A stretch of DNA of 64,000 bases. Origin: Candidatus Rokuibacteriota bacterium. GTDB lineage: Bacteria > Methylomirabilota > Methylomirabilia > Rokubacteriales > CSP1-6. The notes beneath the pieces were generated by a model. The model had not been told where the DNA came from, did not search any database, and was given only the letters and a program-made list of their open reading frames with translations. The stretch lies in the NCBI GenBank assembly GCA_016184125.1, contig JACPDG010000061.1:1-64000 (forward strand). The letters run 5' to 3'. Position 1 is the first letter of the stretch; every line of letters begins with the position of its first letter. The translations under genes and the position numbers were made by a program. This document shows, in pieces, positions 1-3,693 of this stretch.

Positions 1-182
1 GTCGCTGTTCTGATGGATCGCGGAGCCGCCGATCTTCGCAGTTCAGCGGACCGGGGGGCTCGCGATGCTCGCCCTCCGGCCGCTGACTGCGGGCGTTCGG
101 CGGCTGTCCCTGCCAGCGAGCGGTTCGTGGCCCGGCGTGTACTATTGCTCAAGGGGCACGGAAGGAGGAGGGACGTCTCTGA

Positions 183-419
183 ATGCCGAGGATCAAGGGC
201 ATCCCGGGGCCTTACCGCTTCTTCTTCACGAGTTTCGACTGCAACGAGCCAGCGCATGTGCACGTGGAGCGCGAGAGCAGCACCTGCAAGTTCTGGCTCG
301 AGCCGATCGAGTTAGCGCGGAGTCACGGTTTCAACGCCCACGAACTGAACGCGATCCGCCGAATCATCAGGGCGCAGCGTGACAAGCTCCTGGGGGCATG
401 GCATGAACACTGCGGCTAG
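183..419 (+). CDS. DUF4160-family small protein
   Basis: ORF MPRIKGIPGPYRFFFTSFDCNEPAHVHVERE...; typical DUF4160 YRFFFxSxDxxEPxHVHV motif. Confidence 0.85.
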   Translation: MPRIKGIPGPYRFFFTSFDCNEPAHVHVERESSTCKFWLEPIELARSHGFNAHELNAIRRIIRAQRDKLLGAWHEHCG

Positions 420-750
420 CAACGATCCGCGTATCCACGAGGTGAGGGTCACTGAAGACGAGATCGTCGCGCATCTTGCCGACGGCCGGGTCATCAGCGT
501 CCCGCTTGCTTGGTCCTGGCGACTGTCGGAGGCGACGCCAAAGCAACGCGCGAACTTTCGTCTCATCGGGTCAGGCCAGGGAGTGCACTGGCCTGATGTC
601 GATGAGGACATCAGCGTCGAAGGGATGCTTCATGGTGTTCCCGCGCGTCGCCCCCGATCGGGATCAGCCAGTGGAGTCCGCACCGCACGTGGTCACGAAC
701 CGCCGAACAAGCGTATCCAGCCGACGGCGCGCCGGGCGCGCCGCGGCTGA
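403..750 (+). CDS. DUF2442-family protein, partner of DUF4160; C-terminus reads into attC-like repeat (NKRIQPTARRARRG)
   Basis: ORF VTEDEIVAHLADGRVISVPLAWSWRLSEATPKQRANFRLIGSGQGVHWPDVDEDISVEGML is typical DUF2442; overlaps the upstream gene. Confidence 0.8.
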   Translation: MNTAASNDPRIHEVRVTEDEIVAHLADGRVISVPLAWSWRLSEATPKQRANFRLIGSGQGVHWPDVDEDISVEGMLHGVPARRPRSGSASGVRTARGHEPPNKRIQPTARRARRG

Positions 751-765
751 TACGCAGCGTTGGGC
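702..765 (+). repeat. attC-like integron recombination site (imperfect hairpin)
   Basis: GCCGAAC-AA-GCGTATcCAGCCGaCGGCGCG-CCGGG-CGCGCCGCGGCTGATACGC-AGC-GTTGGGC: inverted arms with two unpaired bases on one arm (717, 724) and a GTTGGGC core (GTTRRRY); R'' core has one deviation from RYYYAAC. Confidence 0.6.
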
Positions 766-777
766 GCACTGACAACG

Positions 778-1320
778 ATGCCCGAATGGAGACACACCCT
801 CACCGTTGATGCCTCGTATGACCGATCACGTCGCGTGACGGGCATCGGCATCGTCGTCCAGGAGCGGGTCGGAGTTGGCGGGCGCGGACCCATCGTCGAG
901 GAGATAGTCGAGGCACACGGGGGCATTCCGCCCGGCGCGGGGGAGAAGTTCGCGGTCTTGCGGGCGCTTCAGATCGCGAAGGAGCGTGGGTTCACGCGGC
1001 TCAAGGTCCGATCTGACTCGAACCGGATGCGACGCCAACTCCGCGAACATCACCGCGCCGGACTCGATCGTGAGGGCGACGACTTACATCGAGAGGTTCT
1101 GCGGGTCGCGGCGGCATTCGCCTGGATCGACTTCGGGTATGTCCCAAGACGCCGGAACCAGGTCGCCCATCGCCTCGCCAGGGCAGGGAGGACGAAGGAG
1201 CCGACCGATCACCGTGGTTCGTCGTCGCCTTGTTCGCGAACGGGCCCAGCCCCGACACCTCCCGGTCAGTTCGGCCGATGTCGTCCTGGCGTTCTGGTCC
1301 GGCCCCTTCCGGCTCGCTGA
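778..1320 (+). CDS. RNase H-like (reverse transcriptase-like/RnhA fold) protein; C-terminal ~45 aa uncertain
   Basis: LTVDASYD...TGIGIVVQE...GEKFAVLRALQIAKERGFTRLKVRSDSNRMRRQLREH...YVPRRRNQVAHRLARAG pattern of RNase HI-like proteins. Confidence 0.7.
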   Translation: MPEWRHTLTVDASYDRSRRVTGIGIVVQERVGVGGRGPIVEEIVEAHGGIPPGAGEKFAVLRALQIAKERGFTRLKVRSDSNRMRRQLREHHRAGLDREGDDLHREVLRVAAAFAWIDFGYVPRRRNQVAHRLARAGRTKEPTDHRGSSSPCSRTGPAPTPPGQFGRCRPGVLVRPLPAR

Positions 1321-1423
1321 CGAGCGTTACTGGAGCGTGTTCGAGGACGTGCTTCGCGCGGAAGCCGGTCATCGTGCGGTCCCATTCGTGGCGGGCGAGT
1401 CCGGAGACCAGGCGCGCGCCTCC

Positions 1424-2989
1424 TCAGCGCTCCAGCACGAGGCGCTGCCAGACCGAGACGGCCTTCTGGCCGTTGCGGTCACGCTCGGCGCCGTCCCACA
1501 CCGCGAACGCGACGGCCGACGCCTCGCCCGGGCTGAACTGGGCATCGCGCGCGTTCGGCGTGCGGAGGGCGCGGGCGACGACGACGCGCCACCGGCCGTC
1601 CGCCCAGCGTCCCTCCCCGCGCACGACCGGCGCGTCAGGCGGCTGCGAGGTGAGCGTGCCGACGCCGGTCGCGTTCAGGTTCTCAACCGCGGACCGGCGG
1701 GCGCGCGACATCGGGTTGCCGGCGGCGAGCCCGGTCAGGAACACCGGATCGTGGCGGTCGACGGCCGCGACGGCGGCCTCCGCGGAGGAGGAGCGCGCCC
1801 CGCGCACGAACGGCGTATCGTCGACGACGACGGCGGCGAAACGGTCCTCGCGGTCGCGGTAGCGCGCGACGTCGAGCTGCCAGTCGGCCTTCCAGTGCCA
1901 GATGTTGACCGGGTTGTCCTTGTCGCCCATCACGTAGCTCGGCTCGGGGTGGCCGTGCGCGTGCAGCGCCGTCGCGCGCGTCGGGAACTGGACGGCCACG
2001 GCGTCGCGGAACTGCTCGACGCCGAGCGCGGCCACGTCACCGGCGGGATCGTCCCACTCGAGGAGGAGCGCGAGCTCTCGGCCGTTGTGCACGGCTGCCA
2101 CCCGCACCTCGGGGATCTGCTTCGCGCGCAGCCAGAGCGTGCGCAGCGGGACGGCCTGCAGCCGTGCCCGGCGCCACGTCGCGGCCGACGGGTCGAGCGC
2201 GATCTCGCCCTGGACGCGCCGCACGCGAACGGTCCCGTTCTCGACCGGCGCCGTGGCTGGACGGCTGCCGGCGAGCGAGAGCACGTGGTACGCGACAGCC
2301 CACGTCTCCTCCTCGGAGAGCGAATCGCCGTACGCGGGCATCGGCGTGCCACCGATCCCGTTGCGCAGCGTGCGGTACACGTCGCGCACGGTGTTGCCGG
2401 CCTTCATGCGGCCGGGGATGGTGAAGTCGTACGGCACGATCGCGTAGCCCCACTCGTCGCGCAGCGTGTCCGCCGATTCGCCGTCGCCGCGGCCGCCGGC
2501 GCCGTGGCACTTGAGGCACTCGGCGTCGGCGTAGAACTGCTTGCCGAGCTCGAGCAGCGCCGCCGTCCGCTTCGGCACGGGCGGCATCGCAGTCGGCTTC
2601 GGCGCCGGCTGCTCCTTCCAGACCGCGGCGAGCGTCTTCACGTGCGCCACGACGTCGCGCCGCTGCTGCTCGGTCAGCACGCTGAAGGCCGGCATCGCCG
2701 TCCCGGGGATCCCCCGCGTGACGACACGAACGAGGTCGTCGTCGGTCGGCAGCGTCGGCGTCGAGCGGATCTTGAACTTGCCGCTGGTCAGATCGCGCGG
2801 CTTCGGGAACAGCACGAGCTCGGCCGGGCCGTCGCCCTTGCCGGTGGCGCCGTGACAGACCGCGCACTTCTGCGCGTAGACCGTCGCGCCGCGGGTGGCG
2901 TCGCCGGGCGCTGCGGCCGGGAGGTCGACCGCGACGAGCGTGATCGCGAGGAGCAGGGACACGGCGCCCACGACGAGGGATCGCTTCAT
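1424..2989 (-). CDS. diheme c-type cytochrome fused to ethylbenzene-dehydrogenase-type (DMSOR gamma-like) heme-binding domain
   Basis: signal peptide, CAVCH and CLKCH motifs, C-terminal domain resembling EB_dh gamma subunits (NIWHWKADWQ). Confidence 0.75.
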   Translation of the reverse strand: MKRSLVVGAVSLLLAITLVAVDLPAAAPGDATRGATVYAQKCAVCHGATGKGDGPAELVLFPKPRDLTSGKFKIRSTPTLPTDDDLVRVVTRGIPGTAMPAFSVLTEQQRRDVVAHVKTLAAVWKEQPAPKPTAMPPVPKRTAALLELGKQFYADAECLKCHGAGGRGDGESADTLRDEWGYAIVPYDFTIPGRMKAGNTVRDVYRTLRNGIGGTPMPAYGDSLSEEETWAVAYHVLSLAGSRPATAPVENGTVRVRRVQGEIALDPSAATWRRARLQAVPLRTLWLRAKQIPEVRVAAVHNGRELALLLEWDDPAGDVAALGVEQFRDAVAVQFPTRATALHAHGHPEPSYVMGDKDNPVNIWHWKADWQLDVARYRDREDRFAAVVVDDTPFVRGARSSSAEAAVAAVDRHDPVFLTGLAAGNPMSRARRSAVENLNATGVGTLTSQPPDAPVVRGEGRWADGRWRVVVARALRTPNARDAQFSPGEASAVAFAVWDGAERDRNGQKAVSVWQRLVLER

Positions 2990-3693
2990 GGCTCGTCTCC
3001 CGGGTCTTCGGAGTCCGTGAGGCCGAGCTCGGCGCGCTCGGCGGCAAGACATCGCTCGAGGACGGCGGCCCCGGCGGCGAGCGGCCCGTCGGTCCGCCGG
3101 CCGATCGCGCGGGCGAGCGCGGGGCCCCAGGCGGCCAGGTGCTCGGCGAGGAAGCGCGCCTGCGCGTCCCGAAGCATGGCCACGGCGTCGGGCCCGTGGC
3201 GCTCGCGCGCGTAGGCTTCGCGATACGTGAGGTAGTGCATGAACTCGAGCTCGACGGAGACGTGATCGGCGCGCTCGCCGGCGTCTTCGGCGAGGTCGAG
3301 CCCGAACGCGCGGTAGAAGCCGGCGAGATCGGCGAGCGCCTGCGACTGCCGGAACGCGCCGGCGCTGTCGCCGACCGTCTCGTAGAGCGGGCAGTCGGGC
3401 AGCGTCACGTGACCGAACGTGGCAGCGTGATCCGCGCGCAGGTCCTCCAGCGTCGTGCCGGCGAGCGCCGCGTGCAGCGCGCCGAGCGCCTCGGCCAGGG
3501 GCATCGGGATGCAGCCGGCCACGTCGATGGGGTCGCTCAGCCGTAGGAGCACCGGCACGGACGCGCCGTCGGGATAGCGGAACGCGAGCGCGGCGACGCG
3601 ATAGACGCGGCTGCGCACGAGTGCGCGGGCCGCCTGGGCGCGGTCGTCGACGAGGGCGCTGCTGGAGGCGGTGCGAGGACGCGCGGGAGTCAT
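2986..3693 (-). CDS. TorD/DmsD-family molybdoenzyme maturation chaperone
   Basis: ORF MTPARPRTASSS...RVYRVAALAFRYPDG...FGHVTLPDCPLYET...ADHVSVELEFMHYLTYREAYA; overlaps the cytochrome start by 4 nt. Confidence 0.8.
   Translation of the reverse strand: MTPARPRTASSSALVDDRAQAARALVRSRVYRVAALAFRYPDGASVPVLLRLSDPIDVAGCIPMPLAEALGALHAALAGTTLEDLRADHAATFGHVTLPDCPLYETVGDSAGAFRQSQALADLAGFYRAFGLDLAEDAGERADHVSVELEFMHYLTYREAYARERHGPDAVAMLRDAQARFLAEHLAAWGPALARAIGRRTDGPLAAGAAVLERCLAAERAELGLTDSEDPGDEP

Follow-up and report, generated by a model that had tools for sequence, protein, structure and literature searches.

A probable integron attC site that ends a DUF4160-DUF2442 cassette in Rokubacteria and also encodes the DUF2442 protein tail

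Introduction

An imperfect hairpin lies between a pair of small genes (DUF4160 and DUF2442) and an RNase H-like gene in a genome of the Rokubacteria (Methylomirabilota), and the last codons of the DUF2442 gene fall within it. Is this hairpin an integron recombination site (attC), as the initial annotation of the DNA proposed, and what does it mean that a protein-coding sequence ends inside it? The window that we analyzed is the whole 64-kb stretch (64,000 nucleotides), which starts where its contig (C50 of genome G000) starts, so that the rest of any array on this side has been cut off. The features at this end of the window are as follows (strand in brackets).

28-101 (+): attC no. 1, with R'' GCCGATC at 28-34 and R' GTTCGGC at 95-101; upstream cassette edge; 64.6 bits in the covariance model
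96-759 (+): complete gene cassette of 664 bp, bounded by the crossover points predicted in the two R' boxes (G/TT)
183-419 (+): DUF4160 protein, 78 aa (PF13711, 66 bits); DhiT-type toxin by analogy
403-750 (+): DUF2442 protein, 115 aa from ATG 403 (PF10387, 79.1 bits, and the DUF2442 alignment); DhiA-type antitoxin by analogy
702-765 (+): attC no. 2, with R'' at 702-708, unpaired C 717 and A 724, and R' at 759-765; found by the held-out covariance model
706-750 (+): tail-coding part of attC no. 2, encoding the DUF2442 tail NKRIQPTARRARRG, with the stop TGA (748-750) in the L' arm
778-1320 (+): RNase H-like (RVT_3) ORF (PF13456, 49.5 bits), starting at ATG 778, or at TTG 760 inside R'
1424-3052 (-): cytochrome c / ethylbenzene-dehydrogenase-type heme b subunit; first chromosomal gene past the array, at whose 3' end DNA similarity to relatives ends

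Sequence and Fold of the Hairpin

The sequence at 702-765 is as the initial annotation described it, with inverted repeats (R''/R' and L''/L') that form an imperfect hairpin, two unpaired bases confined to one arm, and the same tail and stop codon in translation. R'' (GCCGAAC, 702-708) is followed by AA and by two stems (GCGTAT at 711-716 with ATACGC at 750-755, and CAGCCG at 718-723 with CGGCTG at 744-749) around an inner hairpin of 19 nt (725-743); a spacer (AGC, 756-758) then leads to R' (GTTGGGC, 759-765). The unpaired bases occur in just one arm, that of R'', where the top strand has C 717 and A 724 and the bottom strand has G and T; unpaired bases occupy equal positions in the aligned sites of the genome. 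R' is a perfect match to GTTRRRY and R'' ends in AAC as required; the fourth base of R'' is a G, which departs from RYYYAAC, and there is one R''/R' mismatch.

Folded as DNA, the 91-nt region around the hairpin reaches -33.0 kcal/mol on the top strand (z -5.2) and -32.2 on the bottom strand (z -4.7), and 0 of 200 shuffles were as stable. An Rfam search of the window at gathering thresholds gave no match, ARAGORN predicted no tRNA in the window, and a nucleotide search of plasmids with window positions 1-1400 gave no match either. A dispersed repeat was considered and rejected, since this exact sequence occurs only once in the genome.

Covariance Model and Genome-Wide attC Sites

We trained a covariance model on sites from the same genome, 11 in all, leaving out 702-765; these training sites had first been chosen in that genome by eye and by a descriptor, whose scan covered the contigs with an integrase or pattern matches and found sites of equal geometry on C105, C38, C42, and C96, with 28-101 added by eye. 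The held-out site scored 60.2 bits (E 2e-13), which supports the attC architecture originally claimed for it. The site at 28-101, overlooked in the first reading, scored 64.6 bits (E 1.4e-14; it is itself part of the training set) and has the same geometry (two stems of 6 bp, each followed by one unpaired base), with a degraded R'' that has ATC in place of AAC. Nothing else in the 64-kb window scored above 14 bits, the best leftover being the reverse strand of 28-101. Searched with the model, the whole genome yielded about 17 attC sites, spread over nine contigs, and attC matches occur in 39 of the 40 genomes searched across the class. The initial annotation had named such a model and a search for further attC sites and intI as its check, and was to be given up if the model rejected the site and no other attC lay upstream; instead, the site was accepted, another attC stands upstream of it, and integron-integrase genes are present in the genome.

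The base pairing also holds across sites: in the alignment of the 12 sites from this genome, 93.5% of the cells are paired, 13 pairs have changed on both sides, and the covariation score is 0.513, as compared to 0.128 in shuffled alignments (0 of 500 reached it) and at most 0.09 in slid controls.

The Cassette, Its Genes, and the Chromosomal Edge

The integron crossover point is the G/TT of R'. With attC at 28-101 as well as at 702-765, both on the plus strand like the genes that they bound, the 664 bp at 96-759 therefore make up one complete gene cassette. We are highly confident that 702-765 is a genuine integron attC, forming the 3' end of this DUF4160-DUF2442 cassette, which lies where an array borders the chromosome. 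By the established mechanism of integrons, the attC would fold on its bottom strand into a hairpin whose extrahelical bases the integron integrase recognizes, and strand exchange in R' would excise or insert the cassette; recombination of this kind is what we infer for the locus.

Within the cassette, the DUF4160 and DUF2442 genes overlap by 17 nt, and the overlap is kept in relatives. Proteins with these two domains act as toxin and antitoxin in the dhiTA system tested in Dickeya dadantii (PMC8198452), and the persistence of a plasmid in Thermus has led to the proposal that a similar pair is a toxin-antitoxin system (PMC12724237). The pair described here has the same two domains (PF13711 and PF10387), likewise encoded toxin gene first by overlapping genes, so by analogy it would be a dhiTA-type toxin-antitoxin system; unlike the D. 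dadantii pair, it sits in an integron cassette and its DUF2442 protein has a basic tail encoded by attC.

Downstream of the cassette, the RNase H-like ORF at 778-1320 has no recognizable attC after it (covariance model, 64-kb window), lacks close relatives among the 94 genomes of the class that we searched (35% identity at best), and is absent at the equivalent place in a genome of the same genus (G001). We consider it a cassette-like or array-end gene, located where the array gives way to the chromosome. That it might be a known plasmid gene was also considered, and the search gave no match. DNA similarity to the relatives G001 and G020 ends at window positions 1425-1429, at the 3' end of the cytochrome gene; beyond the junction (1429), G001 contains other genes and no attC, so the array is absent at that place. 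A different contig of G001 does have a DUF4160-DUF2442 cassette, flanked by attC sites, and the DNA there matches window positions 181-742, little beyond the coding part.

Integrases and Inverted Layout

No integrase lies within the 64-kb window, as the initial annotation had noted; the genome has several integron-integrase copies on other contigs (TIGR02249 matches), all broken as assembled. For example, the IntI on C75 (L002) scores 300.8 bits, above the curated cut-off, and lacks profile positions 255-293, its ORF reading AVRRAG-TQIYTHV without the HxxR box; frameshifts split the IntI on C105 (L018) into two frames and that on C23 (L019) into several pieces. Each of these two contigs also has a further intI fragment, at C105:10785-11045 and at C23:5153-5242. 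Relatives contain full-length IntI proteins (up to 473 bits), which align over their whole length with the IntI structure PDB 2a3v, and a genome of the same genus (G002, contig C366) has an intact IntI. With only broken copies in the assembly, the array is probably sedentary at present, unless the unassembled part contains an intact integrase. The earlier suggestion of a CALIN-like or orphan cassette edge fits the assembly as it stands: a CALIN has at least two attC sites and no integrase nearby (PMC7923331), and this contig has two attC sites and no intI, but the contig is cut at window base 1 and a neighboring integrase is possible.

In all ten loci of the class with both intI and attC (L018, which is C105 of this genome, and L209-L215, L217, and L222), the two are on the same strand and intI has its 3' end toward the array; L217 (G011:C4) has attC on the 5' side of intI as well. 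Inverted (reverse-orientation) integrons have been described for Spirochaetota (PMC9668308) and correspond to a sub-clade of IntI (PMC8352920). The integron architecture of the class, as seen at these ten loci, is of this inverted kind known from spirochaetes, the difference being the host, which here is Rokubacteria/Methylomirabilota; the window's own array is cut off on its intI side. A 2021 list of integron-bearing phyla does not include Rokubacteria or Methylomirabilota (PMC8618304), and our literature search found no paper on integrons of either group, although such an absence does not prove novelty. This deep uncultivated lineage, missing from that list, can now be counted as a host of inverted integrons, and relatives within it have intact integrases.

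The Same Cassette in Other Phyla

We searched the contigs of the genome collection (genome_contigs) with the DUF2442 alignment (A3), which gave 210 relatives, of which 80 were kept. At the DUF2442 loci, 46 of the 48 attC model matches share the gene's strand and are frequently located at its 3' end; the other two, on the minus strand, are strong L132 sites matched in reverse. The hosts of DUF2442-linked attC sites span about six phyla (Deltaproteobacteria, Betaproteobacteria, Acidobacteria, Planctomycetota, Eisenbacteria, and Rokubacteria), and 11 of the 12 such genomes in other phyla have an IntI match, seven of them above the curated cut-off. The window's protein is 77% identical to that of the same genus, and identity is also about 77% to proteins of other families and of Betaproteobacteria, which fits horizontal transfer; the results show one putative toxin-antitoxin cassette common to several phyla via integrons. 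DUF4160-DUF2442 pairs without a recognized attC also occur in many genomes and on plasmids. In L068:1482-1546 (G015:C96), the DUF2442 protein is only 50% identical to that of the window, yet the attC is near-identical and the tail is identical (PNKRIQPTARRARRG). Our literature search found no paper combining "integron" and "DUF2442", an absence that again does not prove novelty.

The attC Site as Coding Sequence for a Basic Tail

The DUF2442 ORF crosses R'' in the frame that reads AAC as Asn, passes through the attC, and stops at the TGA at 748-750 in the L' arm, 15 nt before the end of the site; the attC therefore encodes a basic C-terminal tail, and most of the 64-nt site is coding. Because the stop lies upstream of the crossover point, the antitoxin tail is constant whatever cassette adjoins. 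Relatives with hairpins of 19, 43, 49, and 55 nt have the same frame and place of the stop.

Read-through to an L' stop was found in 16 of the 18 attC-linked DUF2442 cases (including two partly decayed sites, L140 and L062/L135), as compared to 7 of the 47 cassettes of other kinds in the class (Fisher p 4e-8, a value that ignores shared ancestry). The exceptions are L169, which stops before attC, and L136, which has a frameshift (45-nt hairpin). In the latter (L136:2355-2444, from a Betaproteobacteria MAG), the hairpin is 2 nt longer, the frame is shifted, and the ORF extends far past the attC. As a general property of cassettes, read-through to the L' stop was rejected, since most of the others stop before attC or in R''. 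The hairpin length is 1 modulo 3 in 16 of 17 DUF2442-linked sites, as compared to 56 of 150 in the class, a comparison that again ignores shared ancestry; when each distinct hairpin length is counted once, only a weak excess is left (4 of 5, p 0.07). A multiple-of-three rule for attC length across the class was likewise rejected (the 150 sites split 72/56/22 by length modulo 3).

Comparison of substitutions in the tail (Nei-Gojobori) gave in-frame pN/pS ratios of 0.69 for the 64-nt type and 0.54 for the 88-nt type, versus 0.97-1.35 in the other frames. Taken together, the read-through and length counts, the four related genomes described below in which the model gives no attC match and the tail is still open, and these ratios are no more than suggestive of selection on the attC-encoded tail as protein. 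Our tentative reading, which we hold to be just short of an even call, is that this is a dual-use attC, in which a recombination hairpin also encodes a conserved basic tail, with the L' stop fixed and length changes mostly in multiples of three, in several phyla among which integrons would spread the cassette. If the tail is under selection, a mobile recombination site has been turned into part of a protein, and such selection is open to direct testing by changing the codons while leaving the hairpin unchanged.

Discussion

What else could place such a hairpin at the end of these two genes? A strong hairpin that overlaps an operon end might be an intrinsic terminator or an mRNA hairpin with a superficial likeness to attC, and this is extremely improbable here: no T run follows the hairpin, the unpaired bases are fixed, the R boxes lie outside the stem, the same geometry is found at unrelated genes on nine contigs, and integron integrases adjoin such sites in this genome and in relatives, so that both the genome-wide covariation and the linkage to intI contradict it. 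It is very improbable, too, that an ordinary chromosomal DUF4160-DUF2442 operon acquired the attC separately by chance. The many pairs without a recognized attC would suit this explanation, but in the window attC is found on both sides of the cassette, the same genus has an attC-flanked copy at an unrelated place, and in several phyla the attC is at the 3' end of the gene and on its strand.

The integron origin of the site can also be accepted while its present use is questioned: the site may be a relic, attC-derived and kept mainly as coding sequence, which no longer serves as a recombination substrate in this organism. We regard this as a real, if lesser, possibility. Besides the broken integrases (such as the C75 copy described above), it is favored by four related genomes in which the attC at the same gene is not matched by the model and a basic tail of 15-16 residues is still open. 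Against it, the stem at 702-765 is intact, as its model score reflects, and R' fits its consensus perfectly; assembling a metagenome can introduce false frameshifts; and since a same-genus genome has an intact IntI, activity in trans or a recent loss is possible.

The attC reading, for its part, agrees with what is established for chromosomal integrons and their attC sites (59-base elements): the R''/L''/L'/R' boxes, the two extrahelical bases on one arm, the GTTRRRY core adjoining the next cassette, the array context, and IntI in the genome and its relatives. The site departs from them in holding the antitoxin stop in its L' arm and in its single R''/R' mismatch. Elsewhere in the genome, three attC sites lie at C38:38733-39800 (L021), in the middle of a 79-kb contig and far from any integrase that we found.
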